Source: Loxodes magnus (lineage: Eukaryota; Ciliophora; Karyorelictea; Loxodida; Loxodidae). Taken from it: a stretch of DNA of 64,000 nucleotides. Made by a program: the position numbers and the translations under genes. The notes below the pieces were generated by a model. That model ran no database searches. It saw nothing but the letters and a program-made list of their open reading frames with translations, and was not told the origin of the DNA. Within the stretch, counting starts at the first letter, position 1. Every line of letters begins with the position of its first letter. The stretch is from positions 38,762-102,761 of the forward strand of contig CAMPDV010001582.1 in NCBI GenBank assembly GCA_946699065.1, written 5' to 3'. Shown one piece after another: positions 4,450 through 56,041 of this stretch.

Positions 4450-6900
4450 CTGTTTATTTAAATTTTAAATTAAAAGAGTTTTTTGAAATCTATAACTGCA
4501 TGAATTGCTTCCTTCAATTATAGACATTAGTAAATGTTTTTAATGCTTTTTAATTATAATCTTGATTTCATAAATTTTAAATTACTCTTGTTATAGTCTC
4601 TCTTTTATGTCTTCCTTTTTTACTTTTTTCATTTCTAAAAATCTAATCTTCTTGATATAAGTTACTTGTGAAATACTTTTATTTATAAATCTAAATATCC
4701 CAAATAAGACTTTGGAAAGAAGTTTATAAGTATTTAATCATATATTATAAAGCGTCTTAAGTCATAATACTCAATCTTTTACGATAGTCAATCTCTTATA
4801 TTAGAATAGTATATACATCTAAAAATGTGCTAAATTTTACCATACTCTCCACACATACAGTAGGGATTATCAATAGGATAATGATGATCTTAAAGATATT
4901 TTCGAAAACTATAAGATTGGGTTCTAAGCTTATATATACTGATAATTTCTTGTCTAAATTATTTGTTCAATTTAGTGTAAGTAATTACTAGAATTGGTTA
5001 AGATATGAAATTGTTTAGTATATATTTTAGCTTTTTCATTCTCTTAAAATTTTGAGTAGCTGTATTATAGAAATATTATTGTATTTTGTCTCTTATATAT
5101 TTAGTAAAAATTTTTTAATTTGTACTAATCTTAGAATTCTACTGATCGATACTATAGAGGTCTGATAATTGCTAAACTTGATCATAGCATTGAAATCCTT
5201 TTTTTCAGTTGGTAATGAAAAGAGAGTCTATTGTCGACGTTGGAAAATCAATATTTTCTTATTTCATTTTATAATAGAATTAAAAAAACTTTATTGCCAT
5301 AATGTGTTTGAAAGATAACCAGTTTAAATCTATGAAGCATAACTTATTTATGTGCTTAAAGTGCTTTTCTTGAAATCATTCTCATATTTGATTCAATTCT
5401 ATTCAAAACTCAAGTTATTCCTCTCTGAATACACCATGGTACTAGTTCTCTCCATATTCTGCTTTAGGTAATGTAAAAAGTCTGCATAAAGTTTTAAAAT
5501 GTCAAGAAATCACATTCTTATATCTCATAAGTTAAAAACAGCTTTTTCATTGCAACTAAATACTTGATCACGACTTCTCTACAATGAGAATTAAAATTCT
5601 TCTTCTAATGTAGCATTACATCTAAATATGTTACTTGTTCCTTTTAAATAATTGGTTAATTAACTAATCATAAATTTAAATTTTATTATTTCTAATGTTT
5701 CTTTAAAATTTAGATGCATTCAGATTTGATAAATTTGATCTTTAATTGATTTTATGTAAAAATGCTTACCTTTAGCACGTTTCCGATAGTTATCAATTAT
5801 TTGTTATATTATTCAAATTTATTAAGTTGCTTATCTAATTTTTATAAATCCCATTTATGTAGGGTGAATCAAATTTCTCTAATAAAGCAGATTGCAAATT
5901 CTTTTTGTTAAAGCTTTATCATATAGTTTTATAATAATATTAATAAGAGAAACAGGTAATCAGTTTTTCCAGTCATCTTTGATTCCTTTTTTAAATATTG
6001 AAATTATCGCCAATGTATTTAATTCCTAAGAGATTCTTCCAAATCTTAGCATATTATTCAGAAAAGAGTGAAGAATTATTATCAAATATTATCCACCATA
6101 TTTCAGAAATTCACCTTTTATTCTGTCTGAATCAGCTGATTTTCCATTCGTAATTTCTTGTATTTCTTGTATGGTAAAAAGATAAAATCCTAATAAATAT
6201 GAGAGTTGATAATTTTTAATTTCCTATATGCTATCTTATATTTTATCTATTTTTTAATTACTGAGAATTATATTATTTAGTTAGATTAAAATTTTTCTAA
6301 AAAATAAATTCTTCCATGACTCAATGGATTTATTTTTGATTTCTTAATCAAAGTTCATTTAATTTATTATTTTAGGGTTTTTAATTTTCTTAGTATGTGA
6401 AAATATTTCTTTAGCATCTCCATTTAGAAGTAAAAGTTTCTTTTTTGCTTTGTTTTTTCAAAATTTCACAAATTAGAATTGAAGTCATTCAGAATGTCGT
6501 TTCACTTTTTCATGAATATTAGTTACTTATTAGTTTATTCTTCCAGATATAATGTATGCTTCTTATATACTGAGTTAGCCCTTTTAGGCCTACATATTTC
6601 TTAGTAAGATCTCGAGGAAATTTGTTATAACTTGAGTCTGGAATAAAGGATCCCAATGTTTAATCAGCATATTATTAGATGTTATTTTTGATAAATTCAT
6701 ATTAAACTTCAAGATTATCTTAATCTATCTAAAAGAATTCTAGATAAGTTTGCAGGAAAGATTCTAAATATTTTTGACAATATATTGTATCTTATAACCT
6801 ATTTATTTTATATTTCCTCAAATTCTTGCTCATCTTCAATTAATCTCATATAAAATTAAGTTTTGTTTTATAAATAAATTTGCAGAAAAAAATTATCTTT
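4450..6900 (-). mobile_element. LINE ORF2 on the minus strand, RT catalytic core deleted (unit 1)
   Basis: Reading leftwards from about 6860: the linker (LRKYKINR, then GSFIPDSSYNK near 6640), RT region 0 (GKSADSDRIKGEFLKY, about 6150-6105), RT regions 1-2 (ISIFKKGIKDDWKN, then WLPVSLINIII, about 6005-5940) and QMGFIKIR (about 5850). The element then jumps directly to sequence that lies beyond the catalytic motifs. The C-terminal motif NPYCMCGEYG...IQHIFRC is at about 4880-4840. The W of NWLPVSL and of the RDW after the Cys/His motif is TGA. About 400 bp holding RT motifs A to C, still present in unit 3 at 50010-50410, are missing here. There is no endonuclease domain, so the copy is also 5'-truncated. 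Confidence 0.8.
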
Positions 6901-7168: not shown

Positions 7169-7999
7169 ATTTATTAAACCACTACAGAACAATTTTAAAA
7201 CCTAAGATAATTCCCCAAAATAACATACACGAAATTAAACAAAAAATATTTGAAAGAAATAATTTGCATCTATAAGATTAGAAGCCAGTCTTACGCATTT
7301 CGAAAGACTCTGAAAGATCGAAATTATATTATTGAAAATCCTTTTTGTATATGCGGAGAATATGACACTCTCCAACATGTAATGGAATGTATATATTACA
7401 TTGATATAAGAGAATGATTGGTCTCCAAAATTGGTTAATGTGATATTTTTAAACTAATAAATTACGATTAACTATATATAAACTCTTTTCCTAAGAAAAA
7501 TAGAAATTGTGGATGAATAAATAAAAATATTCATTCAAATGTTTATCAAAAGGAGGCAAGAAATTCTATAACAAGAGAAAGAAGAAGAGCAATACGAGAA
7601 ATAATAAAAAGAAGCAAATCTAAGAATAGAAAATTTTAATGAAGAGAATGAAGAATAATAAAATCAAGAAACAAAGAATAAGATGTCCAACAAAATTAGA
7701 TGAAAAATGATGAGGAAGAAGAAGATTGGAACGAAGAGGAAAACGATAGCGAAGATGAAGAAGAAGAAGATTGACAACAGAAAATAGAAAAAAATGAAAG
7801 TTAGCTTGAAAATGAACAAGAAAGGAGATACTCAGAAGAAAAAAAACCTAAACTAGAAAATTAGTTCTGAAGAGCAATAAACTTGATATATAATAACATT
7901 TAAAAACAATATAATACCTTCAATTGGAAGAACATATTCTGAAAATTGAAGGTACCACAAATTTTTTTAGTTAAATTAAATTTAATTTATTAAATCACT
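7169..7999 (+). mobile_element. 5'-truncated LINE 3' fragment with 15-bp target-site duplication (unit 1)
   Basis: An 801-bp insertion (7184-7984) is flanked by ATTTATTAAACCACT at 7169-7183 and ATTTATTAAATCACT at 7985-7999. Unit 3 has a single uninterrupted copy of this site at 51830-51844. The insert codes for the ORF2 C-terminus: KKYLKEIICIYKIRSQSYAF, CICGEYDTLQHVMEC, IREWLVSKIG and a tail rich in Glu/Asp (DEEEEDW, NDSEDEEEED). TGA occurs at the Trp of REWL and again in the tail. Severe 5' truncation with a long TSD is the usual outcome of target-primed reverse transcription. Confidence 0.9.
7915..7954 (+). other. Hairpin in LINE 3' UTR
   Basis: Perfect 11-bp inverted repeat TACCTTCAATT (7915-7925) and AATTGAAGGTA (7944-7954) with an 18-nt loop, about 30 nt before the LINE 3' end. 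Unit 2 has it at 29958-29997. The other LINEs carry a related AATTGAAGGAAG element (2269-2288 plus strand, 4502-4520 minus strand). It may be the 3' structure recognised by the LINE's own RT. Confidence 0.6.
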
Positions 8000-11147: not shown

Positions 11148-12359
11148 TCAACTCGAAACTCTCCACTTTCTTATTGTCTTGTCCCATCCTCCCGATACCA
11201 ACCATCTATTATCAACACTCAATGCTATAGAAGATATTGCATATTTATGCCCTTATAAAGTCTATATACACTCACCCTTATCAAAGTTCCAAATCTTGAT
11301 TGTTTTATCATTTGAACCAGAAAAGATAACACTTGAATCAACACTTAACTGAATACTTGATACACCCCTTGTATGACCTTGAAGAGTACGAATACACTAA
11401 CCAGAAGAGAAGTCCCATATCTTAATAGTACTGTCAACAGAACCCGATATTATATACCTATTATCCTTAGACACTATCACCGATAAAACTGAGTCTGAAT
11501 GCCCAGTAAGAGTTCGCACAAGCTGACCAGTCTAGAAATTCCAAATCTTTATTGTTGTATCCCAAGATCCCGATATAATATATCTAGAGTCATAGGAGAT
11601 TACTACCGATATAACTACATTAGTATGTCCAGACAAAGTTCTTTGGAGATCACCATTGAGGAAATTTCAGATCTTTATAGTGTTATCGTAAGATCCCGAT
11701 ACTATATAGCTAGAGTCTGGGGAAATTACTACCGATATAACTACATTAGTATGTCCAGACAAAGTTCTTTGGAGATCACCATTGAGGAAATTTCAGATCT
11801 TTATAGTGTTATCAGCAGATCCCGATACGATATAGCTAGAGTCCTAGGAGATTACTACCGAGTTAACTGAGGAAGTATGCCCCGTTAAAGTTCTTATGAG
11901 AGAACCAGTCTATAAGTTTCAGATCTTGATCGTGTTATCAGCAGATGCTAACACTATACAATTAGAGTCAGGGGAGATTACTACCGAGTTAACTGAGGAA
12001 GTATGTCCTGTTATAGTTCTTATGAGAGCACCTGTCTGGAAATTCCAGATCTTTATAGAATTTTCTGGATATCCTGAACCTGATACAATCCAATTTAGGT
12101 CACTTGATATGGCTACCGATAAAACAGGTGAAGAGTGACCAGTGAGGACTTAGTCTAAAAATATTAAAGAAATACCTTTACTTTGGTCATAACTGATCTT
12201 ATTTATTAACTTTTAGTAGCATAAGTTAGGCAGAATTTCATACTTAAAATGAAGTAGAGATATTTTCCCTAGGATGTGGCTTCTCACTCTTAGGAGTTTT
12301 CTTAAAAAAATACTTTTAGTAAATTGCTTTTCTTTTTTCTCCATTTATTTTTTCTCCAT
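11148..12359 (-). CDS. WD40-repeat protein, 8 blades (unit 1 copy)
   Basis: Two exons on the minus strand: 12176-12359 (ATG at 12359) and 11148-12154, with a 21-nt GT-AG intron at 12155-12175. The product is 396 aa. A ~60-residue basic N-terminus (MEKKQMEKKEKQFTK) is followed by eight 42-residue blades of the form GHTNVVISVVISPDSSYIVS-GS-DNTIKIWNF, which should fold into a beta-propeller for protein binding. TGA stands at the blade-ending Trp in three blades (11919, 11793, 11667) where sister blades have TGG. TAG/TAA stand at Gln in QTG and LQG. The last blade ends KWRVSS then TGA (11148-11150), read as stop and conserved in all three copies. No frameshift was found. Blades 3-5 include an exact tandem duplication with a 126-bp period. 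Partner and pathway are unknown. Confidence 0.9.
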
Positions 12360-15300: not shown

Positions 15301-17451
15301 AGATTCTAACTTTAAATGTTAAGTAAAGTAGCAAAATAAATTATAATTTTGAATTAAAAACATATTTATTTTTAATTTTATTGATTCAAATATGCCTATA
15401 AATAAAAAAATATGAAATTAGAACAATTTTTTATTAAAAGGAGAGTTAAAGATTGTCTAAGAACAATAAATAAAATAAAATTAAATTAAAGTTTTTGATA
15501 AATTTGTATTAATAAAATATAAACTATATAAATTTGAATATTATTCTTGCTTATTTAAAATTTAATATTATTTAAATATTTTAAATATTTCTGGTAATTA
15601 AATTTTATAAAAACTTACTCATTTATAGTTATTAATTATTAGTGAAAATAATATTATTATAATACTATTTATAATTTATTTACGTATCTTATATTTATTA
15701 TTTTTATATATTAAATTTCATAGAAAAATAATTAGTAATAATTAGTATTTAATAATTAATGCAATTCTACTAATTATAATTAAAATCCAAGTTTTCAAAT
15801 TCTAGGTTTAACAGACTGGAAAATGCTATTTTTTTACTTAAAATAGGTACATAAGGAAAAATTATTTATTTATAAAATAAATTATATCAATAGAGTATAT
15901 ATCCCTTCTTATTTTTAGTTTAAAATATCCCTTTCTATAAACATTTATTTTTTAAACAATTTTGTCGAAACTAATTATAAAAATCTATTTTGTAATAAAT
16001 TAAAAACTCTATCAAGTTGATAAGTAATATTTATACTTTTATCGAAGAGAATTTCTTTCTAATTATATTATAGCAAGTGGTTATCATACTTTCAAATATA
16101 TATAAAAATTAAAATATAAATGAGAATAGCATTTTAAAGCCTTTACATTATAAAAAGATGTATTTTATAGATAGTAAATTTAAGCAAAGAAATGATAAAG
16201 TAATAAAGAATATAATAAATAATTTATATAATGAATGGATTCTTTTTATCTATTATAAAAATATTTAATTTCTTATTATATATTAAAATAATATATTTTT
16301 ATATTTATAAAATAGTTTTAATTAATTTCTCATATAACTTTAGTTTAGTAAAATCTTTATAAATTAAAAAGAATTTAGATATCAAATTTAAAATATTTAA
16401 TTTGTAAAATGATTAAAAATTTAATAAAACTATAATATGATTTTAAGATATAATTAGAAATAAAAGAAAGTATAAAATTTATGTATCGTATTTAAAAAAT
16501 ATAATTAAACTTATTTAATATATTTAAATAACTTAAAAAATAATTTTCTTTATTTTTAAACATTTTAAGCATAGTTTTAAATAATTTTAAGTTATATATA
16601 AATATAAATATTATTATTTTAATAAAAATTATAAATCAAATAGTTTAATTTATATAATTCTTTCACACTATATTTATAGCATTTTCATTTCTTATTATTT
16701 TTATTATTAGATTCTAAATATTTTTAATAGTGAAATTTTATATTTAGTTTTTATTTGTTTCAATACATTTTTCTTCGTTATAACTTTATTATTAAATTGT
16801 GTCATTTATAATATTTATCATATTCTTTTTTTGATTAAATATTATCTTATATTTGTTAAATTCTTGTCATAATAACTTATTAATATCGTAATTATATTAC
16901 TTAAAATTTAAGCTCCAATTAATTTAATTCTAGCGAATATCTTCCAATAAATTAAATTTCTTCACTATTAAATTAAATTAATCTATTTTTTCTATATTTT
17001 TAAATTATTTTATTTCAAATTGTCATATTCTATTAAAAAATTACTCTGATGTTTAATAAAGTTCGAAAAGTTATTTTTGCTCATTTTTTCACTTAAATTT
17101 TTTTATATCAAGAAAAATTTGACTAAAATCTTAATTATCACAGTATCAGCCAAGCTTTTTTCTCAACTAGAATCGAATGATTAAGTTTAAATGAAATTCA
17201 TAGTTTATTTAATAGTATTATTTTAATTTTTCATTTGTATTATCGATATCCTTTTTTATATAAAAGCTTCTAACTTTTGGAGTAAAACAAATATCTTTGG
17301 AATTAATGAGGAGAAAATGCATACTTAAAATTAAATCATTTGATACTATAAAGTTTTAGATAAAACACCAAATATTAGGTTTTGTAATTATTATTATATA
17401 AAATTGTTTCTCCATTATTAAGGAGTTTTACCCTCTCAAAAGTACAGCGCT
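12360..17451. other. 5.1-kb AT-rich desert
   Basis: No coding pattern, RNA gene or repeat recognised apart from simple AT-rich runs. It is nevertheless almost unchanged in unit 2 (34227-39309). Its first 1.3 kb is shared with unit 3. Promoters of the WD40 gene should lie in its first few hundred bases, but no motif could be assigned. Confidence 0.5.
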
Positions 17452-18328
17452 TCAAGCTTTTCGCTGTTCGTTAAAATACTTGGGCAACAGAAAGATTACA
17501 CGTACCCATCCGCGGGTTTTTTTAATAGGTTTTACGTTATAATTCCCTTAGGACTTGGTTATAGCTCCATTTTCTTCCTCTTGTTCGTACTTCCATTCTC
17601 GTGCAAAAAATCTTGTTCAGCCCAATTGCTTTTGTTCGCTTTGCTTATCAGAAATTCTATTGTTTCCATTGAAACTTCTTACAGTTCCGATATAGTTTTT
17701 ATTGGTTTTAGAAGCGAAAGCATCTCTTCTTGATCGGAATTAGTCTCATTTGAAGTTAAGCTTAGGGTTTGACGATCATTGAGATCGATCCATTATTTAG
17801 CTATTCCATTCTTGATTCTTTTAGGAGTTGAATTTCATATTCTTATTTCACTACTTAATCCCTCAGCTAAGTTGTGTTTTATCCTAATGGTGTTGGATGC
17901 TGAAGAACGCATCCATTTGCGTTCATAGTCATCTATACGATCCCCGTCCATTTAATTTTCTTTGTGGCTTGAAAATTAGTTTTTTGTTCTAGTATTTAAA
18001 CTTTTAAACCTCTTCATTGAAGTTCACCACTCTTAATGCAAACTACACTACATCAAATTGCTCAGAGTTAAAGCCAAAGGATCGTTCCTAGTCACGCAAT
18101 ATCATCTCCTACTGCCTTCGAGGCCTCTCTTCCGTTTTGGAGTTTACCAAGTTTGTTTCTGTCGTTTACGACTTTGGAAGTTGTTAGGTCTGTTATTAGT
18201 TTTTTTGCTGATAAAAGGTTGTTCTAATTAAAGAAAAGACGTGAGGTTAGAAGAATGACATCTCGCTTCCTCTCTTCCTTTTTGTCTTTTGAAGAGGTGG
18301 CAAAGAAGCCCTATCGGATGTTTGACAT
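17452..18328 (-). CDS. Unknown basic protein, intron-rich (gene X, unit 1)
   Basis: A block clearly richer in GC than its surroundings, purine-rich on the minus strand. ATG at 18328 directly follows an A run (MSNIRQGFFATSSKDKKEER). Two 19-nt GT-AG introns (18129-18147 and 18012-18030) bring three different frames into register: exon 1 181 nt, exon 2 98 nt, then a long exon with IDDYERKWMRSSASN and SLLKPIKTISELQEV. A third small intron is needed to reach the conserved TGA at 17452: either 17 nt at 17574-17590 or 23 nt at 17479-17501. Both keep frame and give 273 or 271 aa. The protein is Lys/Arg/Ser/Asn-rich with no signal peptide or membrane segment. No family recognised. It is codirectional with the WD40 gene and gene Y. 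Confidence 0.6.
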
Positions 18329-18686
18329 TTTTTTAATTACATATAAATTGATGTAATTTATAATTATCCAAGCTAGAAAAAACTTAAAATTTTATGAAGT
18401 TAATAATTTAAAATAATTTAATTATTAGATTTAACCTTTTAAATAAAATTTAGTCTTAAACATTTTTTATTTTAAGTTTTGAATATTAAATTATTAAATT
18501 AAATTATTAAATTAAATATGTTAAAGTAAATAATTTTAATTATTTTTAGCTTTTAATATTGCTTCAATAAGAGCTTGCAATATTATTAGAATATAAATAT
18601 TTAAAGGTAGTTTAATTAAAAGCGTTTTTAAAGTTTCTATCTATATAGAGGACAAAACTTCAAACTCTATAAATATATTTCGCATT

Positions 18687-20999
18687 TCAAATGACGTGGA
18701 TCACCATGCAAAGCAGCCCCCTAAATTTATGAGAATGATGAAAAACATATAGGATATCCTGCCACGTCTTCTATTTGCTGTTATATTCTTTCTTTTTCTT
18801 AGTTGAAGATTCCTACTACTTAAATAGATTTTTCTGAAGGAATATAGTCAGTTTCCTCTTATGTTTCCTCTTATATTTCTTCCTGCTTTTCTTCACTTTC
18901 TTCTACATATTTTTGTTATACATCCTGATTTGCTCTTATAGTTTATCCAAATTACATTGCTATAAGACTTGCTTATTCTTTACATGATTTTCTTTTTTTT
19001 CTCCAATTCATATCGTAATTGTTAAGCTTGGAAGTTTTTTCTTGAAAACCTCATATACTGCGCTATTTTAAAATACTGTTCTTGCAATTATAAATAAAAT
19101 AAATTTGACTCCTAAAGGTGGCGTAGGTTTTTCTTCTTTATAACCATCTAATTTTCTCTTATATAACTCGAGCATTTTCTTCAGTTCGATCTTTTGCTAA
19201 ACTGAAAATAATAATTTTTCATTCTTTGCTATTTTAAGATGTATAAATTTGATTTGAAAAAGGGATATCTTAAGATTTGATAAATATTTAACATTTATTT
19301 AGTTTTATTTACTTTTTCTTATTCAGTTTATTAAGTACTAAGAACATTTTAAGTATTTTAGTCTATTTTTTAGTGGGAGCATTTTATTATACTACTTTAA
19401 GTATCTACTCTCCTGTTCAAACAGCACATCTATTAAACTTACTAGCTCCTAGAATAAATTCGGCAACTCCTGCTTCACTTAAGGAGCTTTTCCCACTTGG
19501 ACAGATTGCTAAACATAGAATAGTAATTCCATTCAAATTTTTACAATTTTACCTTACTAAAAATTAATTCTTCTAAGTAGAATATAAGCTAGACATTCTT
19601 CATGGTCTCTAAAATACTGTTCTGAAGCAATCTAATTCAAAATTTCAACTTATTGTCTTATTTTGCACTGAACTTCATACTTTTTTGTGTAAATATTCAA
19701 TCAGTTAATCACTTTCAAGTATGCTTTTCATTTAAAGACTTGGAATATTTCTAGCAAATCTTTCCCAAATCATTCTAAGGATTTAATCAGATAATCCATC
19801 AGCTGTTATATTTTATTGATGAGTAAAATATAAACCATAGAAAAAACACCATAAATCGGTTATTTAAGAATGCTTTACTATTTCAAAATATCTCATATTA
19901 TAAAGTATGAAGTCATAGTCACTAGGATCAAGAAAATTTTTATAATCTCTATATTTTAAAGCTGCTTCAAGAGAGCTATTTCTCTTCATCATCAATTCTT
20001 CCAATAGCTATATTCCTTACAATTTCAACTAAAAGCTTACCAAGTTAGGAACTTTCACGGATTATTCTCTTAGAATTATTTATACAGTGTTTATCATAGC
20101 CAATATATAGATTAAAAATTTGTCTTCTTCTGATCTATAATAAGCCATTAAAGTACCATAAATACATGCTAGGTAAGACTAAACCATTTCAAGAGCATAT
20201 ATTTTTTATTTCCCCTCTAATCTTAAAAACTTATTCTATGCATCAGACTCTAGATGTACAAAAGATGATATTAATCAGTTTTAGTTCTCAGGGAGTTTCT
20301 TTCTCCAAAATGCATTATTTATTATACTGCAAGGTAATAATCCTAAAACACCTCACTAATTTACACGCTTCATCCAGACCCAATTATTAGTTCTAAAATA
20401 CAAACAGGTACAGTTCCCTTTTGTAATGTTACATCTGTTTCTGGTAGTTAAAAAACTAGCACTAAATACGCATCAGCTTCAGTTTTTCCATCATGATTTT
20501 TAAAGGTATCATTAAGCATTTCAATTACTACATTTTATCTCAATAAATTTTATCTCTCTGCAGCTCACTAAGTATGAGATGGTATTTAATAATTAATTAT
20601 TGGAGTCAGGCAATCTTAATAAGATATAAAAAGTACAGGGACTGTAAATTTAATAACAATAAAAAGTGTTAATTAATATATAATAGATTTTTAGAATATT
20701 TATACTACTGAAGACGCGGTATGGGTCAGAATTAATTACTTGAACTATTCTTCAGAGATAAAAAATAAAATGATATAATCACTAGCTAAAGATAAGTAGC
20801 AAGATGTACTTTAAAAAAGTCTTATCTACTTTTAATGAATCTTACTTTATTGTCTTTAATTGGTTATTCTTTTAAAATTACATTGCAATGTATTATTTCA
20901 AATTCTATATAAAACTTCACACTGAATCTTAAGTGGATCCCAACTCTGATGTAGCATTTATTTTAACAAAGTACAGTAACCTTAAATATTTAAAGAATT
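18687..20999 (-). CDS. Unknown large protein with Glu-rich C-terminus (gene Y, unit 1)
   Basis: Multi-exon gene read leftwards. Candidate GT-AG introns are 20615-20636 (22 nt), 20393-20411 (19), 20169-20184 (16) and 18798-18816 (19). From 20392 to the TGA at 18687 the three exons (208, 1352 and 111 nt) join without a break into 556 residues. Visible stretches are LGLDEACKLVRCF, GTLMAYYRSEEDKFLIYI, LSDQILRMIWERFARNIPSL, SSLSEAGVAEFILGASKF, a Glu/Gln-rich segment (VEESEEKQEEIQEETQ) and a last exon ending LLCMVIHVI. TGA is used for at least six internal Trp. Upstream of 20411 coding continues (DAYLVLVFQLPETDVTLQ; further up NATSELGSTQDSVWSFIQNL) to near 21000. One junction there stays unresolved and one-base differences from unit 2 occur. 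No family recognised; helical repeats are possible. Confidence 0.55.
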
Positions 21000-21289
21000 T
21001 AAAATAAATGACTTAACATTTTCAAATAGAACTTTAAGATGCTAGTAGTAGCAAATAATTTTAAATAAAGTTTTAAATAAAATAGAATTAAAATTTTATT
21101 CAGATGTAATAGGAAGGTTGAGTGCGATGCCTACTTCACACCTTTATTTTAAAGATTAAGATAATAACATTGACTAATAGAAATTTCCAACTTATACTTA
21201 CACAATATTAAACAAGACAATGATTAAAGAAATAGTATCAATTTTCAAATTAATGACCTTTAGTTTCAATTTTTAGTATTATTTGAAAT

Positions 21290-21660
21290 ATATGTACTAT
21301 TAAATAAAACACTCTTAAATATAGATTTGCAGAGAATAAGAAACCTATTAACATATTTCTTAATGTGAAGCTCTGCAAGATTTAATGGAAGAATTTAAAG
21401 ACTTGAAAAATTATGATTTGCTTAAACTTATAACTAGCAAAAAATTTAAATTAATCCTAACTTCCATACTCTAAGATAACTTTAACAAATTGACAACAGA
21501 ATTAAATACTTTCATTCAAAATTGCTTCAAAGAAGAATTTAAATTTTAGAGTAAAAAAACGAACAAGTGGAAGAGTTAATGGAATAATTTGACTAGTGAG
21601 CAAGTGCAGAAGAAAATGATTAAAGAAAATTAAACCAAGATTATTGAGATGGAAGTTGTA
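21290..21660 (+). pseudogene. LINE ORF2 C-terminal fragment (unit 1)
   Basis: Plus-strand remnant with the Cys/His motif ICREQETYQHISQCEAL (codons 21328-21366), with Gln as TAA or TAG, followed by MEEFKDLKNYDLLKLIT and a Lys/Glu-rich tail (EQVQKKMIKENQTK). It aligns in spacing with CICGEYDTLQHVMEC of the other LINEs but is more diverged, so it is probably an older insertion or a related family. It runs tail-to-tail with nothing recognisable and starts just beyond the 5' end of gene Y. Confidence 0.5.
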
Positions 21661-26489: not shown

Positions 26490-28940
26490 AACTGTTTATT
26501 TAAATTTTAAATTAAAAGAGTTTTTTGAAATCTATAACTGCATGAATTGCTTCCTTCAATTATAGACATTAGTAAATGTTTTTAATGCTTTTTAATTATA
26601 ATCTTGATTTCATAAATTTTAAATTACTCTTGTTATAGTCTCTCTTTTATGTCTTCCTTTTTTACTTTTTTCATTTCTAAAAATCTAATCTTCTTGATAT
26701 AAGTTACTTGTGAAATACTTTTATTTATAAATCTAAATATCCCAAATAAGACTTTGGAAAGAAGTTTATAAGTATTTAATCATATATTATAAAGCGTCTT
26801 AAGTCATAATACTCAATCTTTTACGATAGTCAATCTCTTATATTAGAATAGTATATACATCTAAAAATGTGCTAAATTTTACCATACTCTCCACACATAC
26901 AGTAGGGATTATCAATAGGATAATGATGATCTTAAAGATATTTTCGAAAACTATAAGATTGGGTTCTAAGCTTATATATACTGATAATTTCTTGTCTAAA
27001 TTATTTGTTCAATTTAGTGTAAGTAATTACTAGAATTGGTTAAGATACGAAATTGTTTAGTATATATTTTAGCTTTTTCATTCTCTTAAAATTTTGAGTA
27101 GCTGTATTATAGAAATATTATTGTATTTTGTCTCTTATATATTTAGTAAAAATTTTTTAATTTGTACTAATCTTAGAATTCTACTGATCGATACTATAGA
27201 GGTCTGATAATTGCTAAACTTGATCATAGCATTGAAATCCTTTTTTTCAGTTGGTAATGAAAAGAGAGCCTATTGTCGACGTCGGAAAATCAATATTTTC
27301 TTATTTCATTTTATAATAGAATTAAAAAAACTTTATTGCCATAATGTGTTTGAAAGATAACCAGTTTAAATCTATGAAGCATAACTTATTTATGTGCTTA
27401 AAGTGCTTTTCTTGAAATCATTCTCATATTTGATTCAATTCTATTCAAAACTCAAGTTATTCCTCTCTGAATACACCATGGTACTAGTTCTCTCCATATT
27501 CTGCTTTAGGTAATGTAAAAAGTCTGCATAAAGTTTTAAAATGTCAAGAAATCACATTCTTATATCTCATAAGTTAAAAACAGCTTTTTCATTGCAACTA
27601 AATACTTGATCACGACTTCTCTACAATGAGAATTAAAATTCTTCTTTTAATGTAGCATTACATCTAAATATGTAACTAGTTCCTTTTAAATAATTGGTTA
27701 GATATCTAATCATAAATTTAAATTTTATTATTTCTAATGTTTCTTTAAAATTTAGATGTATTCAGATTTGATAAATTTGATCTTTAATTGATTTTATGTA
27801 AAAATGCTTATCTTTAGCACGTTTCGATAGTTATTAATTATTTGTTATATTATTCAAATTTATTAAGTTGCTTATCTAATTTTTATAAATCCCATTTATG
27901 TAGGGTGAATCAAATTTCTCTAATAAAGCAGATTGCAAATTCTTTTTGTTAAAGCTTTATCATATAGTTTTATAATAATATTAATAAGAGAAACAGGTAG
28001 TCAGTTTTTCCAGTCATCTTTGATTCCTTTTTTAAATATTGAAATTATCGCCAATGTATTTAATTCCTAAGAGATTCTTCCAAATCTTAACATATTATTC
28101 AGAAAAGAGTGAAGAATTATTATCAAATATTATCCACAATATTTCAGAAATTCACCTTTTATTCTGTCTGAATCAGCTGATTTTCCATTCGTAATTTCTT
28201 GTATTTCTTGTATGGTAAAAAGATAAAATCCTAATAAATATGAGAGTTGATAATTTTTAATTTCCTATATGCTATCTTATATTTTATCTATTTTTTAATT
28301 ACTGAGAATTATATTATTTAGTTAGATTAAAATTTTTCTTAAAAATAAATTCTTCCATGACTCAATGGATTTATTTTTGATTTCTTAATCAAAGTTCATT
28401 TAATTTATTATTTTAGGGTTTTTAATTTTCTTAGTATGTGAAAATATTTCTTTAGCATCTCCATTTAGAAGTAAAAGTTTCTTTTTTGCTTTGTTTTTTC
28501 AAAATTTCACAAATTAGAATTGAAGTCATTCAGAATGTCGTTTCACTTTTTCATGAATATTAGTTACTTATTAGTTTATTCTTCCAGATATAATGTATGC
28601 TTCTTATATACTGAGTTAGCCCTTTTAGGCCTACATATTTCTTAGTAAGATCTCGAGGAAATTTGTTATAACTTGAGTCTGGAATAAAGGATCCCAATGT
28701 TTAATCAGCATATTATTAGATGTTATTTTTGATAAATTCATATTAAACTTCAAGATTATCTTAATCTATCTAAAAGAATTCTAGATAAGTTTGCAGGAAA
28801 GATTCTAAATATTTTTGACAATATATTGTATCTTATAACCTATTTATTTTATATTTCCTCAAATTCTTGCACATTTTCAATTAATCTCATATAAAATTAA
28901 GTTTTGTTTTATAAATCAATTTGCAGAAAAAATTATCTTT
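26490..28940 (-). mobile_element. LINE ORF2 on the minus strand, RT core deleted (unit 2)
   Basis: Near-identical to 4450-6900, with the same domain order (linker, RT regions 0-2, C-terminal Cys/His motif at about 26920-26880) and the same ~400-bp deletion of RT motifs A-C. The deletion therefore predates the split of units 1 and 2. Confidence 0.8.
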
Positions 28941-29208: not shown

Positions 29209-30042
29209 ATTTATTAAACCACTATAGAACAATTTTAAAACCTAAGATAATTCCCCAAAATAACATACACGAAATTAAACAAAAAATATTTGAAAGAAAT
29301 AATTTGCATCTATAAGATTAGAAGCCAGTCTTACGCATTTCGAAAGACTCTGAAAGATCGAAATTATATTATTGAAAATCCTTTTTGTATATGCGGAGAA
29401 TATGCCACTCTCCAACATGTAATGGAATGTATATATTACATTGATATAAGAGAATGATTGGTCTCCAAAATTGGTTAATGTGATATTTTGAAACTAATAA
29501 ATTACGATTAACTATATATAAACTCTTTTCCTAAGAAAAAAATAGAAATGGTGGATGAATAAATAAAAATATTCATTCAAATGTTTATCAAAAGGAGGCA
29601 AGAAATTCTATAGCAAGAGAAAGAAGAAGAGCAATACGAGAAATAATAAAAAGAAGCAAATCTAAGAATAGAAAATTTTAATGAAGAGAATGAAGAATAA
29701 TAAAATAAAGAAAACAAAGAATAAGATGTCCAACAAAATTAGATGAAAAATGATGAGGAAGAAGAAGATTGGAACGAAGAGGAAAACGATAGCGAAGATG
29801 AAGAAGAAGAAGATTGACAACAGAAAATAGAAAAAAATGAAAGTTAGCTTGAAAATGAACAAGAAAGGAGATACTCAGAAGAAAAAAAACCTAAACTAGA
29901 AAATTAGTTCTGAAGAGCAATAAACTTGATATATAATAACATTTAAAAACAATATAATACCTTCAATTGGAAGAACATATTCTGAAAATTGAAGGTACCA
30001 CAAATTTTTTTAGTTTAATTAAATTTAATTTATTAAACCACT
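29209..30042 (+). mobile_element. 5'-truncated LINE 3' fragment with perfect 15-bp TSD (unit 2)
   Basis: Same insertion as 7169-7999. Here the target-site duplication ATTTATTAAACCACT is perfect on both sides (29209-29223 and 30028-30042). It carries CICGEYATLQHVMEC, REWL with TGA for Trp, the acidic tail and the 3' hairpin (29958-29997). Confidence 0.9.
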
Positions 30043-33142: not shown

Positions 33143-34226
33143 TCAACTCGAAACTCTCCACTTTCTTATTGTCTTGTCCCATCCTCCCGATACCAACCAT
33201 CTATTATCAACACTCAATGCTATAGAAGATATTGCATATTTATGCCCTTATAAAGTCTATATACACTCTCCTTTATCAAAGTTTCAAATCTTGATTGTTT
33301 TATCCCATGAACCAGAAAAGATAACACTTGAATCAACACTTAACTTAATACTTCATACAACATCTACGTGACCTTGAAGAGTACGAATAAACTAACCAGA
33401 AGAGAAGTCCCATATCTTAATAGTCCTGTCATAAGAACCTGATATTATATACCTATTATCCTTTGACACTATCACCGATAAAACTCGGCCTGAATGCCCA
33501 GTAAGAGTTCGCACAAGCTGACCAGTCTAGAAATCCCAAATCTTTATAGTTTTATCCCAAGACCCCGATATAATATATCTAGAGTCATAGGAGAGTACTA
33601 CCGATATAACTACATTAGTATGTCCAGACAAAGTTCTTTGGAGATCACCATTGAGGAAATTTCAGATCTTTATAGTGTTATCGTAAGATCCCGATACTAT
33701 ATAGCTAGAGTCTGGGGAAATTACTACCGATATAACTACATTAGTATGTCCAGACAAAGTTCTTTGGAGATCACCATTGAGGAAATTTCAGATCTTTATA
33801 GTGTTATCAGCAGATCCCGATACGATATAGCTAGAGTCCTAGGAGATTACTACCGAGTTAACTGAGGAAGTATGTCCTGTTATAGTTCTTATGAGAGCAC
33901 CTGTCTGGAAATTCCAGATCTTTATCGATTTTTCAGGATATGCTGAACTTGATACTATTCAATTCAGGTCACTTGATATGGCTACCGATAACACAGCTGA
34001 AGTGTCAGTAAGGACTTAGTCTAAAAAATATTAAAGAAATACCTTTACTTTGGTCATAACTGATCTTGTTTATTAACTTTTAGTAGCATAAATTAGGCAG
34101 AATTTCATACTTAAAATGAAGTAGAGATATTTTCCCTAGGATGTGGCTTCTCGCTCTTAGGAGTTTTCTTAAAAAAATACTTTTAGTAAATTGCTTTTCT
34201 TTTTTCTCCGTTTGTTTTCTCTCCAT
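33143..34226 (-). CDS. WD40-repeat protein, 7 blades (unit 2 copy)
   Basis: Exon 1 is 34043-34226 (ATG at 34226) and exon 2 33143-34020, with a 22-nt intron at 34021-34042, giving 353 aa. The intron is one base longer than in unit 1 yet the exon frames agree, which shows it is a real intron. The N-terminus is MERKQTEKKEKQF, with CAA (34212-34214) where unit 1 has TAA, direct support for TAA=Gln. Seven blades; relative to unit 1 one 126-bp blade is absent. TGA replaces unit 1 TGG at two Trp positions (33959-33961 and 33284-33286). Blade 1 begins DTSAV instead of GHSSPV (one residue shorter). It ends RVSS then TGA at 33143-33145. Confidence 0.9.
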
Positions 34227-37200: not shown

Positions 37201-39309
37201 CAAAATAAATTATAATTTTGAATTAAAAACATATTTATTTTTAATTTTATTGATTCAAATATGCCTATAAATAAAAAATATGAAATTAAAACAATTTTTT
37301 ATTAAAAGGAGAGTTAAAGATTGTCTAAGAACAATAAATAAAATTAAATTAAAGTTTTTGATAAATTTGTATTAATAAAATATAAACTATATAAATTTGA
37401 ATATTATTCTTGCTTATTTAAAATTTAATATTATTTAAATATTTTAAATATTTCTGGTAATTAAATTTTATAAAAACTTACTCATTTATAGTTATTAATT
37501 ATTAGTGAAAATAATATTATTATAATACTATTTATAATTTATTTACGTATATTTATTATTTTTATATATTAAATTTCATAGAAAAATAATTAGTAATAAT
37601 TAGTATTTAATAATTAATGCAATTCTACTAATTATAATTAAAATCCAAGTTTTCAAATTCTAGGTTTAACAGACTGGAAAATGCTATTTTTTTACTTAAA
37701 ATAGGTACATAAGGAAAAATTATTTATTTATAAAATAAATTATATCAATAGAGTATATATCCCTTCTTATTTTTAGTTTAAAATATCCCTTTCTATTAAC
37801 ATTTATATTTTAAACAATTTTGTCGAAACTAATTATAAAAATCTATTTTGTAATAAATTAAAAACTCTATCAAGTTGATAAGTAATATTTATACTTTTAT
37901 CGAAGAGAATTTCTTTCTAATTATATTATAGCAAGTGGTTATCATACTTTCAAATATATATAAAAATTAAAATATAAATGAGAATAGCATTTTAAAGCCT
38001 TTACATTATAAAAAGATGTATTTTATAGATAGTAAATTTAAGCAAAGAAATGATAAAGTAATAAAGAATATAATAAATAATTTTATATAATGAATGGATT
38101 CTTTTTATCTATTATAAAAATATTTAATTTCTTATTATATATTAAAATAATATATTTTATATTTATAAAATAGTTTTAATTAATTTCTCATATAACTTTA
38201 GTTTAGCAAAATCTTTATAAATTAAAAAGAATTTAGATATCAAATTTAAAATATTTAATTTGTAAAATGATTAAAAATTTAATAAAACTATAATATGATT
38301 TTAAGATATAATTAGAAATAAAAGAAAGTATAAAATTTATGTATCGTATTTAAAAAATATAATTAAACTTATTTAATATATTTAAATAACTTAAAAAATA
38401 ATTTTCTTTATTTTTAAACATTTTAAGCATAGTTTTAAATAATTATAAGTTATATATAAATATAAATATTATTATTTTAATAAAAATTATAAATCAAATA
38501 GTTTAATTTATATAATTCTTTCACACTATATTTATAGCATTTTCATTTCTTATTATTTTTATTATTAGATTCTAAATATTTTTAATAGTGAAATTTTATA
38601 TTTAGTTTTTATTTGTTTCAATACATTTTTCTTCGTTATAACTTTATTATTAAATTGTGTCATTTATAATATTTATCATATTCTTTTTTTGATTAAATAT
38701 TATCTTATATTTGTTAAATTCTTGTCATAATAACTTATTAATATCGTAATTATATTACTTAAAATTTAAGCTCCAATTAATTTAATTCTAGCGAATATCT
38801 TCCAATAAATTAAATTTCTTCACTATTAAATTAAATTAATCTATTTTTTCTATATTTTTAAATTATTTTATTTCAAATTGTCATATTCTATTAAAAAATT
38901 ACTCTGATGTTTAATAAAGTTCGAAAAGTTATTTTTGCTCATTTTTTCACTTAAATTTTTTTATATTAAGAAAAATTTGACTAAAATCTTAATTATCACA
39001 GTATCAGCCAAGCTTTTTTCTCAACTAGAATCGAATGATTAAGTTTAAATGAAATTCATAGTTTATTTAATAGTATTATTTTAATTTTTCATTTGTATTA
39101 TCGATATCCTTTTTTATATAAAAGCTTCTAACTTTTGGAGTAAAACAAATATCTTTGGAATTAATGAGGAGAAAATGCATACTTAAAATTAAATCATTTG
39201 ATACTATAAAGTTTTAGATAAAACACCAAATATTAGGTTTTGTAATTATTATTATATAAAATTGTTTCTCCATTATTAAGGAGTTTTACCCTCTCCAAAG
39301 TACAGCGCT
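34227..39309. other. 5.1-kb AT-rich desert (unit 2)
   Basis: Counterpart of 12360-17451; nothing recognised. Confidence 0.5.
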
Positions 39310-40186
39310 TCAAGCTTTTCGCTGTTCGTTAAAATACTTGGGCAACAGAAAGATTACACGTACCCATCCGCGGGTTTTTTTAATAGGTTTTACGTTATAA
39401 TTCCCTTAGGACTTGGTTATAGCTCCATTTTCTTCCTCTTGTTCGTACTTCCATTCTCGTGCAAAAAATCTTGTTCAGCCCAATTGCTTTTGTTCGCTTT
39501 GCTTATCAGAAATTCTATTGTTTCCATTGAAACTTCTTACAGTTCCGATATAGTTTTTATTGGTTTTAGAAGCGAAAGCATCTCTTCTTGATCGGAATTA
39601 GTCTCATTTGAAGTTAAGCTTAGGGTTTGACGATCATTGAGATCGATCCATTATTTAGCTATTCCATTCTTGATTCTTTTAGGAGTTGAATTTCATATTC
39701 TTATTTCACTACTTAATCCCTCAGCTAAGTTGTGTTTTATCCTAATGGTGTTGGATGCTGAAGAACGCATCCATTTGCGTTCATAGTCATCTATACGATC
39801 CCCGTCCATTTAATTTTCTTTGTGGCTTGAAAATTAGTTTTTTGTTCTAGTATTTAAACTTTTAAACCTCTTCATTGAAGTTCACCACTCTTAATGCAAA
39901 CTACACTACATCAAATTGCTCAGAGTTAAAGCCAAAGGATCGTTCCTAGTCACGCAATATCATCTCCTACTGCCTTCGAGGCCTCTCTTCCGTTTTGGAG
40001 TTTACCAAGTTAGTTTCTGTCGTTTACGACTTTGGAAGTTGTTAGGTCTGTTATTAGTTTTTTTGCTGATAAAAGGTTGTTCTAATTAAAGAAAAGACGT
40101 AAGGTTAGAAGATTGACATCTCGCTTCCTCTCTTCCTTTTTGTCTTTTGAAGAGGTGGCAAAGAAGCCCTATCGGATGTTTGACAT
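39310..40186 (-). CDS. Unknown basic protein, intron-rich (gene X, unit 2)
   Basis: Same length (877 bp) as 17452-18328, with ATG at 40186, 19-nt introns at 39987-40005 and 39870-39888, and the TGA at 39310-39312 retained. The few differences include no indel in the span. In a competing downstream frame the TGA of unit 1 is GGA here, which argues that the stop at 39310 (17452 in unit 1) is the true one. Confidence 0.6.
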
Positions 40187-40544
40187 TTTTTTAATTACAT
40201 ATAAATTGATGTAATTTATAATTATCCAAGCTAGAAAAAACTTAAAATTTTATGAAGTTAATAATTTAAAATAATTTAATTATTAGATTTAACCTTTTAA
40301 ATAAAATTTAGTCTTAAACATTTTTTATTTTAAGTTTTGAATATTAAATTATTAAATTAAATTATTAAATTAAATATGTTAAAGTAAATAATTTTAATTA
40401 TTTTTAGCTTTTAATATTGCTTCAATAAGAGCTTGCAATATTATTAGAATATAAATATTTAAAGGTAGTTTAATTAAAAGCGTTTTTAAAGTTTCTATCT
40501 ATATAGAGGACAAAAACTCAAACTCTATAAATATATTTCGCATT

Positions 40545-42860
40545 TCAAATGACGTGGATCACCATGCAAAGCAGCCCCCTAAATTTATGAGAATGATGAA
40601 AAACATATAGGATATCCTGCCACGTCTTCTATTTGCTGTTATATTATTTCTTTTTCTTGGTTGAAGATTCCTACTACTTAAATAGATTTTTCTGAAGGAA
40701 TATAGTCAGTTTCCTCTTATGTTTCCTCTTATATTTCTTCCTGCTTTTCTTCACTTTCTTCTACATATTTTTGTTATACATCCTGATTTGCTCTTATAGT
40801 TTATCCTAATTACATTGCTATAAGACTTGCTTATTCTTTACATGATTTTCTTCTTTTTCTCCAATTCATATCGTAATTGTTAAGCTTGGAAGTTTTTTCT
40901 TGAAAACCTCATATACTGCGCTATTTTAAAATACTGTTCTTGCAATTATAAATAAAATAAATTTGACTCCTAAAGGTGGCGTAGGTTTTTCTTCTTTATA
41001 ACCATCTAATTTTCTCTTATATAACTCGAGCATTTTCTTCAGTTCGATCTTTTGCTAAACTGAAAATAATAATTTTTCATTCTTTGCTATTTTAAGATGT
41101 ATAAATTTGATTTGAAAAAGGATATCTTAAGATTTGATAAATATTTAACATTTATTTAGTTTTATTTACTTTTTCTTATTCAGTTTATTAAGTACTAAGA
41201 ACATTTTAAGTATTTTAGTCTATTTTTTAGTGGGAGCATTTTATTATACTACTTTAAGTATCTACTCTCCTGTTCAAACAGCACATCTATTAAACTTACT
41301 AGCTCCTAGAATAAATTCGGCAACTCCTGCTTCACTTAAGGAGCTTTTCCCACTTGGACAGATTGCTAAACATAGAATAGTAATTCCATTCAAATTTTTA
41401 CAATTTTACCTTACTAAAAATTAATTCTTCTAAGTAGAATATAAGCTAGACATTCTTCATGGTCTCTAAAATACTGTTCTGAAGCAATCTAATTCAAAAT
41501 TTCAACTTATTGTCTTATTTTGCACTGAACTTCATACTTTTTTGTGTAAATATTCAATCAGTTAATCACTTTCAAGTATGCTTTTCATTTAAAGACTTGG
41601 AATATTTCTAGCAAATCTTTCCCAAATCATTCTAAGGATTTAATCAGATAATCCATCAGCTGTTATATTTTATTGATGAGTAAAATATAAACCATAGAAA
41701 AACACCATAAATCGGTTATTTAAGAATGCTTTACTATTTCAAAATATCTCATATTATAAAGTATGAAGTCATAGTCACTAGGATCAAGAAAAATTTTATA
41801 ATCTCTATATTTTAAAGCTGCTTCAAGAGAGCTATTTCTCTTCATCATCAATTCTTCCAATAGCTATATTCCTTACAATTTCTACTAAAAGCTTACCAAG
41901 TTAGGAACTTTCACGGATTATTCTCTTAGAATTATTTATACAGTGTTTATCATAGCCAATATATAGATTAAAAATTTGTCTTCTTCTGATCTATAATAAG
42001 CCATTAAAGTACCATAAATACATGCTAGGTAAGACTAAACCATTTCAAGAGCATATATTTTTTATTTCCCCCTCTAATCTTAAAAACTTATTCTATGCAT
42101 CAGGCTCTAGATGTACGAAAAATGATATTAATCAGTTTTAGTTCTCAGGGAGTTTCTTTCTCCAAAATGCATTATTTATTATACTGCAAGGTAATAATCC
42201 TAAAACACCTCACTAATTTACACGCTTCATCCAGACCCAATTATTAGTTCTAAAATACAAATAGGTACAGTTCCCATTTGTAATGTTACATCTGTTTCTG
42301 GTAGTTAAAAAACTAGCACTAAATACGCATCACCTTCAGTTTTTCCATCATGAGTTTTAAAGGTATCATTAAGTATTTCAAATCTACATTTTATCTCAAT
42401 AAATTTTATCTCTCTGTAGTTCACTATGTTGGAGATAATATTTAATAATTAATTATTGGAGACAGGCAATCTTAATAAGATATAAAAAGTACAGGGACTG
42501 TAAATTTAATAGCAATAAAAAGTGTTAATTAATATATAATAGATTTTTAGAATATTTATACTACTGAAGACGCGGTATGATTCAGAATTAATTCCTTGAA
42601 CTATTCTTCAGAGATAAAAAATAAAATGATATAATCACTGACTAAAGATAAGTAGCAAGATGTGCTTTACAAAGTCTTATCTACTTTTAATGAATCTTAC
42701 TTTATTGTCTTGAATTGGTTATTCTTTTAAAATTACATTGCAATGTATTATTTCAAATTCTATATAAAACTTCACACTGAATCTTAAGTGGATCCCAACT
42801 CTGATGTAGCATTTATTTTAACAAAGTACAGTAACCTTAAATATTTAAAGAATTTAAAAT
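40545..42860 (-). pseudogene. Gene Y copy with several one-base indels (unit 2)
   Basis: Counterpart of 18687-20999, with introns at 42471-42492, 42250-42268 and 40656-40674 and TGA at 40545. Relative to unit 1 it has one C more in the C run near 42068, one A fewer near 41700, one base fewer near 41119 and one fewer near 42382, and it lacks one base that unit 1 has in the N-terminal part. Reading frames are thus broken in the region where unit 1 is open, while the N-terminal part (KFTVPVLFIS, SEEQFKELIL) reads better here than in unit 1. Sequencing errors in homopolymers could mimic this. Confidence 0.5.
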
Positions 42861-43149
42861 AAATGACTTAACATTTTCAAATAGAACTTTAAGATGCTAG
42901 TAGTAGCAAATAATTTTAAATAAAGTTTAAATAAAATAGAATTAAAATTTTATTCAGATGTAATAGGAAGGTTGAGTGCGATGCCTACTTCACACCTTTA
43001 TTTTAAAGATTAAGATAATAACATTGACTAATAGAAATTTCCAACTTATACTTACACAATATTAAACAAGACAATGATTAGAGAAATAGTATCAATTTTC
43101 AAATTAATGACCTTTAGTTACAATTTTTAGTATTATTTGAAATATATGT

Positions 43150-50410: not shown

Positions 50411-51829
50411 TTACTTTTAGCACTTTTCCAATAGTTATCAATTATTTGTTATATTATTCAAATTTATTAAGTTGTTTATCTATTTTTCATAAATCCCATT
50501 TATGAAGAACGAATCAAATTTCTCTAATAAATTAGATTGTATAGTCTTTTTGTTAAAGTTTTATCATATAGTTTTATAATGATATTAATCAGAGAAATAG
50601 GTAGTCAGTTTTTCCAGTCATCTTTATTTCCTTTTTTAAATATTGGAATTACCGACAATGTATTTAAATTCCTAAGGGATTCTTCTAAATCTTAACATAT
50701 TATTCAGAAAAGAGTGAAGAATTATTAACTAATATTTTCCACCTCATTTCAGAAGTTCACTTTTTATTCTGTCTGGACCAGCTGCTTTTCCATTCGTAAT
50801 TTCTTTTATAATTTTTTGTATTTCTTGTATGGTAAAAAGATAAAATCCTTATAAATATGAGAGTTGATAATCTTTAATTTCTTAAATACTATCTTATATT
50901 CTATCTATTTTTTAATTACTAAGATTTATTTATTATTTAGTTAGATTAGAATGTTTGTTAAAAGTGCAATGCTCCCATGAATCAATGGATTCATTTTTGA
51001 TTTCTTAATTAAAGTTCATTTATTTTATTTTTTAGGGTTTTTAATTTTCTTAGTATTTGAAAATATTTCTTTAGCATTTCCATTTAGAAGTAAAAATTTC
51101 TTTTTTGCTTTGTTTTTTCAAACTTTCACAAATTAGAATTGAAGTCATTCAGAATGTCGTTTCACTTTTTCATGAATATTAGTTACTTATTAGTTTATTC
51201 TTCCAGATATAATGTATGCTTCTTATATAATGAGTTAGCTCTTTTAGGCCTACATATTTCTTAGTAAGATCTTGAGGAAATTTGTTATAACTTGAGTCTG
51301 GAATAAAGAATCCTAATGTTTAATCAGCATTGTATTAGATGTTATTTTTGATAAATTCATATTAAACTTCAAGATTATCTTAATCTATCTAAAAGAATTC
51401 TAGATAAGTTTGCAGAAAAAATTCTAAATATTTTTGACGATATATTGCATCTTATAACCTATTTATTTTATATTTCCTCAAATTCTTGCACATCTTCAAT
51501 TAATCTCATATAAAATTAAGTTTTGTTTTATAAATCAATTTGCAGGAAAAAAATTTTCTTTTTAAGCTATAATATCATCTTATCACTGTTTATCTTATAA
51601 AAGAATTGTTTTAATAATTAAGTTTTTATCTTTAAATAATCTAGCAATTTTCAGTTGATATCATACTTTATGAATAAATATAATTACAATCTTTAAAATA
51701 TTAATAAAATAGATCAATAAGGAAAAAATAATGACTATTTAATTAGAAAATGAATATGAAAACATTTTAATTTAATTTCTTGATAAGATATTTTAAATTA
51801 AAATAAGTGTTTAATCTTTTAAAAATTAT

Positions 51830-54954: not shown

Positions 54955-56041
54955 TCAACTCGAAATCCTCCACTTTCTCACAGTATTGTCTCTAGCTCCC
55001 GATACCAACCATCTATTGTCAACACTCAATGCTATAGATTCTATTAAACTTGTATGTCCTTACAAAGTCTATATACACTCACCCTTATCAAAGTTCCAGA
55101 TCTTGATTGTTTCATCGTAAGATCCAGAAAATATAACACTTGAATCAACACTTAACTGAATACTTCATACAACATCTGTATGACCTTAAAGAGTACGAAT
55201 ACACTAACCGGAAGAGAAGTCCCATATCTTAATAGTCCTGTCACCAGAACCCGATATTATATACCTATTATCCTTAGACACTATCACCGAATAAACAGAA
55301 CCTGAATGCCCAGTAAGAGTTCGCACAAGCTGACCAGTCTAGAAATCCCAAATCTTTATAGTTTTATCCCAAGATCCCGATATAATATATCTAGAGTCAT
55401 AGGAGAGTACTACCGATATAACTGTATTAGTATGCTCAGACAAAGTTCTTTGGAGAGCACCATTGAGGAAATTTCAGATCTTTATGGTTGCATCGTAAGA
55501 TCCTGATACTATATAGCTAGAGTCATAGGAGATTACTACCGATCTAACGAAGGAAGTATGTCCCGTTATAGTTCTTTGAAGAGCACCAGTCTATGAATTT
55601 CAGATCTTGATCGTGTTATCAGCAGATCCTGATACGATATAGCTAGAGTCATAGGAGATTACTACCGAATTAACTTAATCAGTATGTCCCGTTAAAGTTC
55701 TTATGAGAGAACCTGTCTGGAAATTCCAGATCTTTATCAAATTTTCAGGATAGTCCGAACCTGATACAATTCAATTCATATCACTTGATATGGCTACCGA
55801 TAACACAGCTGAAGAGTGACCAGTGAGGGCTTAGTCTAAAAAATATTAAAGAAATACCTTTACTTTGGTCATAACTGATCTTGTTTATTAACTTTTAGTA
55901 GCATAAGTTAGGCAGAATTTCATACTTAAAATGAAGTAGAGATATTTTCCCTAGGATGTGGCTTCTCGCTCTTAGGAGTTTTCTTAAAAAAATACTTTTA
56001 GTAAATTGCTTTTCTTTTTTCTCCGTTTCTTTTTTCTCCAT
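54955..56041 (-). CDS. WD40-repeat protein, 7 blades (unit 3 copy)
   Basis: Exon 1 is 55858-56041 (ATG at 56041) and exon 2 54955-55835, with a 22-nt intron at 55836-55857, giving 354 aa. The N-terminus is MEKKETEKKEKQF. Seven blades start GHSSAV, GHTDQV, GHTSFV, EHTNTV, GHSGSV, GHTDVV and GHTSLI. TGA stands for Trp in NWIVSG, twice in IKIWN and in VVWSIQLS, the last a standard Trp position in WD40 blades. It ends RISS then TGA (54955-54957). It is intact although it differs at many codons from units 1 and 2, which implies selection on protein function. It lacks the exact 126-bp duplication of the other two. Confidence 0.9.

Follow-up and report, generated by a model that had tools for sequence, protein, structure and literature searches.

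For the karyorelict Parduczia, a nuclear code in which the meaning of a codon depends on its position was published as early as 2016 (PMC4967479), and Swart et al. (2016) proposed translation as the default in such codes, with termination imposed near the transcript end (PMC4967479). For Loxodes magnus itself, with a MAC assembly of 706 Mbp, the published code is NCBI table 27, with UGA as Trp or stop (PMC11441545). As far as that account goes, it resembles what is found here in having TAA and TAG as Gln, TGA as Trp or stop and depleted ahead of the stop, AT-rich sequence after the stop and short introns, and no difference was found in the features compared (PMC11441545). Condylostoma magnum is described as sharing the three sense codons, position-based termination and a failure to detect tRNA-Trp(UCA); however, all three codons also serve as stops there, while here TGA is the stop in the genes analysed, with one doubtful TAA (PMC4967479). 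Blastocrithidia, according to its published description, also has a tRNA-Trp(CCA) with a 4-bp anticodon stem and a changed Ser70 in eRF1, this being Gly there and Ala here, but it reads UAR as Glu and uses UAA as stop, whereas here UAR lies at Gln positions and TGA at gene ends (PMC12153298).

Judging from the sequence, the Loxodes magnus DNA analysed here almost certainly follows NCBI table 27, the nuclear code published for karyorelicts; Gln would be encoded by TAA and TAG, while TGA would encode Trp inside genes and act as stop near the transcript end. The observation of an earlier note on this DNA, that all three stop codons are used as sense codons with TGA also ending genes, is confirmed. 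As the code is already published, a new or independent case is not supported.

The window, which is the whole stretch of 64,000 nucleotides that was analysed, contains a tandem duplication (2323-57336) with a repeat of ~22 kb, each unit carrying a WD40 gene and LINE-like pieces. Two of the units lie ~22 kb apart at ~96-97% identity and the third is partial (~90-96%). The features referred to below are as follows.

11148..12359, minus strand: WD40 gene of unit 1, from the start ATG at 12359 to the end TGA at 11148-11150 (Pfam and translation)
11919-11921, 11793-11795 and 11667-11669, minus strand: internal TGA codons of unit 1 in the table 27 frame
12155..12181, minus strand: putative GT..AG intron of unit 1, 27 nt, placed by alignment with units 2 and 3
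33143..34226, minus strand: WD40 gene of unit 2, with 5 internal TGA and the end TGA at 33143-33145
34021-34048, minus strand: putative intron of unit 2, 28 nt, placed by collinearity with unit 1
54955..56041, minus strand: WD40 gene of unit 3, with 4 internal TGA and the end TGA at 54955-54957
55836-55863, minus strand: putative intron of unit 3, 28 nt, placed by collinearity with unit 1
7409-7420 and again 29449-29460, plus strand: LINE-like REWL motif with TGA (sequence match)
1869-1880: REWL copy with TGG (sequence match)
5945-5965 and again 27986-28006, minus strand: LINE-like NWLPVSL motif with TGA (sequence match)
50599-50610: NWLP with TGA (sequence match)

Translated with table 27, 11148-12359 gives a protein of 403 residues with 8 WD40 stretches (Pfam PF00400). 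Units 1, 2 and 3 possess 3, 5 and 4 internal TGA, 4, 3 and 5 TAA, and 5, 4 and 4 TAG codons respectively, making 9, 7 and 9 for TAA and TAG together. The three WD40 genes had been called intact, which holds for unit 1 with its open frame; units 2 and 3, however, are open and collinear with unit 1 only once a 28-nt GT..AG stretch is removed, a putative intron that was missing from the earlier note. In unit 1 the corresponding stretch is invisible in the frame because its 27 nt are a multiple of three. Published introns of Loxodes magnus have a mean of 19.3 bp, with 93% of them at or below 25 bp (PMC11441545), and the 27-28 nt WD40 introns would therefore be longer than most.

All six codons singled out previously are correct on the minus strand, these being TGG at 12090-12092 against TGA at 33959-33961, TGG at 11289-11291 against TGA at 33284-33286, and TAA at 12345-12347 against CAA at 34212-34214, and the Gln of LQTG is indeed encoded by TAG in the WD40 genes. 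Both TGG/TGA pairs had been assigned to the blade Trp, which is right for 11289, but the Trp at 12090 occupies the NWIVS position and not the blade Trp of IKIW.

Sense TGA had also been claimed for LINE motifs and for a gene Y. With the former, REWL has TGA in two copies against TGG in one, and NWLP has TGA in 3/3 copies. The identity of these pieces as LINEs found no backing from Pfam (zero domains in nine frames); we take them to be LINE-like on the strength of the earlier note and of motifs known from such elements. The search for gene Y covered 17000-21500, which together with 39000-43000 forms a relatively GC-rich repeated stretch; no Pfam match was obtained in six frames of this first copy, nor were a G-periodicity scan and raw translation of help.

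A genome of 705,730,643 bases was searched with the WD40 protein, giving at least 197 matching stretches, several of which often belong to one gene, and those listed contain in-frame stop codons. The family is thus large in this genome, the 197 stretches being a lower bound and not a gene count. A literature search for papers joining Loxodes and WD40 found none. The three window genes were combined with 12 others, hand-picked and hence non-random, from the listed places into a set of 15 paralogs, which share ancestry and are not independent trials, so that the p value calculated from them overstates the significance. Among the alignment columns with at least six sequences, 11 have Trp in half or more of their cells, and these hold 48 of the 66 internal TGA cells, a count that treats TGA itself as Trp. 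Without this assumption, 15 of the 66 occupy a single blade-Trp column that has no standard codon at all (TGA in 15/15). The other 51 comprise 19 at positions where TGG prevails among the standard codons, 14 in a blade-Trp column that has one AAA as its sole standard codon, and 18 at positions dominated by other residues. There are also TAA/CAA exchanges between WD40 copies, in keeping with TAA and TAG as Gln in table 27.

Protein kinases and eRF1 extend these findings to further gene families. In the kinase search 136 domains were scored, at least one TGA being present in 91 of them (157 TGA altogether) and at least one of TAA, TAG and TGA in 135 (counted by eye). Among the eight best of the 136 domains, the Trp of DxWSxG is encoded by TGG in seven and by TGA in one, while at a different position the TGA of kinase L105 is aligned with a TGG of its relative L108; it is by alignment, in the WD40 genes and the kinases, that TGA inside genes is found to correspond to the Trp of table 27. 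The translated eRF1 copy has 20 TAA/TAG codons and zero internal TGA. Nine of the 20, including that for the Gln of the catalytic GGQ, lie at Gln positions of chain 1dt9_A (counted by eye), which we take to be the human eRF1 structure.

As a gene end, TGA follows the last blade in 15/15 WD40 genes, although one BLAST alignment ended one codon short, leaving 14 in the automatic tally. The conserved terminal TGA described previously is therefore present not only at 11148-11150, 33143-33145 and 54955-54957, but also in 12/12 further paralogs. In the last 20 codons of these 15 related genes the Trp codons are 33 TGG and 1 TGA, against 70 TGG and 65 TGA further upstream, a depletion of TGA just before the stop such as has been published for Loxodes magnus (PMC11441545). 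GC content at the WD40 end TGA is 0.34-0.37 in the preceding 300 nt and 0.18-0.22 in the following 60 nt; the published values for the species are 33.5% for CDS and 18.6% for 3′UTR, the latter having a mean length of 53 bp and a median of 41 bp (PMC11441545). Within the window, 48 of 300 columns before the TGA vary among the three copies (13, 12 and 23 by codon position), and 23 of 235 after it (8, 5 and 10), with 9 gap columns. With the flank no less conserved than the gene and the phase not clean, the window copies alone are no proof of a gene end. No further TGA occurs in frame within 30 codons past the end TGA of units 1 and 2.

Histone genes give evidence independent of these copies. Eight H3-type genes, the best of 31 histone-fold matches, were inspected; all five canonical H3 genes end in IRGERT-TGA and two of the three variants carry their TGA slightly further downstream, by a few codons. 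The remaining H3-like variant, L092, carries TAA at the position of the TGA in its relative L093, and a TGA five codons further on; this may be a rare UAA stop. Five weaker PF00125 places were examined for histone H4, and the expected motifs were absent from all of them. TGA as stop is recognised by its position in the gene (15/15 WD40, 5/5 canonical H3). The earlier proposal of context-dependent termination with sense TAA, TAG and TGA is supported across WD40 paralogs, kinases, eRF1 and H3-type genes, and the likeness to karyorelictids drawn at the same time is borne out, the code matching table 27 in every codon feature tested.

Other explanations of these codons were considered. The WD40 copies could be decaying pseudogenes in which TGA is an ordinary nonsense mutation, so that only TAA and TAG would be reassigned, to Gln. 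Their location within a tandem duplication that is rich in repeats and contains LINE-like pieces would suit such decay, as would paralog L069, which carries TAG at a blade Trp. However, dN/dS is 0.39-0.43 among the three window copies, with an excess of third-position changes, and across the 15 paralogs TGA is concentrated at the blade Trp and near-absent from the last 20 codons; the TGA-containing kinase domains argue against decay genome-wide, making this explanation extremely unlikely. In a small number of genes, internal TGA might instead stand for selenocysteine or programmed readthrough, uses of UGA that are described for other eukaryotes (PMC4967479). As the aligned residue is Trp and not Cys, and as TGA is present in most of the kinase domains scored, there is next to no probability left for it.

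A code of the Condylostoma type, with TAA and TAG also ending genes, would account for the TAA of L092 opposite the TGA of L093. Regular TAA or TAG stops were nevertheless not found, the ends being TGA in 15/15 WD40 genes, 5/5 canonical H3 and 2/3 H3 variants, and L092 itself has the TGA downstream of its TAA, which leaves this type of code very unlikely. A code of the Blastocrithidia type was rejected as well, since UAR falls at Gln positions and genes end in TGA.

The earlier note had called for a search for tRNA-Trp(UCA), tRNA-Gln(UUA) and tRNA-Gln(CUA). As to the second of these, tRNA(UUA) is abundant, its pattern matching 276 places, of which 6/6 fetched were called as tRNA with anticodon TTA by ARAGORN; charging with Gln would be expected from the codon positions. 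No tRNA-Trp(UCA) was found with two patterns. The second of these, which fits the local Trp tRNAs but would miss tRNA-Sec and odd shapes, gave 0 matches (reversed control 1), and a UCA-loop match on contig C68 was discarded, since it is devoid of tRNA stems and is not called by ARAGORN. Likewise, no credible tRNA-Gln(CUA) gene was obtained with two patterns, one of them ill-fitting; this one assumed a 5-nt variable loop, unlike the UUA tRNA here, and is hence weak as evidence of absence. Two CUA matches on contig C245 were rejected, ARAGORN again calling nothing, and look decayed; judged by eye, they are presumably decayed Lys-type tRNAs.

A tRNA-Trp pattern matched 132 places, 100 of them listed, against 2 for the reversed-pattern control. 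On contig C67 the pair 27-43 of tRNA-Trp(CCA) is A.C in 35/35 distinct copies examined (49 listed), and on contig C148 it is U.C in 5/5 copies examined (47 listed), each leaving an anticodon stem of 4 bp, while contig C110 has three single places with the full 5-bp stem. The 4-bp stem is therefore present in 40 of the 43 copies examined and the 5-bp stem in three. The short-stem genes are arranged in tandem arrays (L036-L063 on C67, L066 on C148) with units of ~187 and 241 bp. A tRNA-Trp of this kind has already been reported for Loxodes, as stated in two papers that both cite another (PMC13092985, PMC12005148).

An inspection of eRF1, likewise proposed earlier, showed it to be altered at stop-reading sites. 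There are two eRF1 genes (L002, L003), ~35 kb apart on contig C196 and 96% identical. In human numbering, both copies have Ala55, Arg58, Gln60, Ala70 and Phe125 (read by eye) and keep GTS, NIKS and Cys127. Human Ser70 is thus replaced by Ala in both, a change to a small residue of the sort associated with Blastocrithidia-type decoding. A literature search found no paper stating Ser70Ala for Loxodes eRF1, a key critique being left outside that search. In both genes a TGA follows DPDEDFL, with another TGA three codons later. A further match to the eRF1_1 domain, on contig C2, was inspected by eye and set aside as an eRF1 copy; from the appearance of its sequence it is presumably Pelota. Swart et al. 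(2016) report that none of the changes in eRF1 follows the codes on its own (PMC4967479), and caution is therefore due on the weight given to Ser70Ala.

It is possible, if somewhat doubtful, that Loxodes and the unrelated trypanosomatid Blastocrithidia have converged on one two-part way of reading UGA, namely a tRNA-Trp(CCA) with a 4-bp stem plus an eRF1 that has lost Ser70, and that Loxodes has nevertheless kept UGA as a stop. In Loxodes the short-stem tRNA-Trp(CCA) genes are multiplied in tandem arrays, with a few copies of the 5-bp form besides. Under the main reading, that of table 27, the short-stem tRNA-Trp(CCA) would outcompete a weakened eRF1 at UGA in the body of the mRNA, whereas close to the poly(A) tail the balance may be shifted to termination by poly(A)-binding protein and eRF3.

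The code matters as one in which a single codon has two meanings that are distinguished by position. Of use here are a gene-level collection of 15 WD40 paralogs that share a terminal TGA, and the finding that a short-stem tRNA-Trp occurs alongside an eRF1 without Ser70, a combination that makes the mechanism testable. If the parallel with Blastocrithidia is true, loss of Ser70 would make eRF1 a poorer reader of UGA in general, and recognition of UGA would have to be restored by the transcript end.
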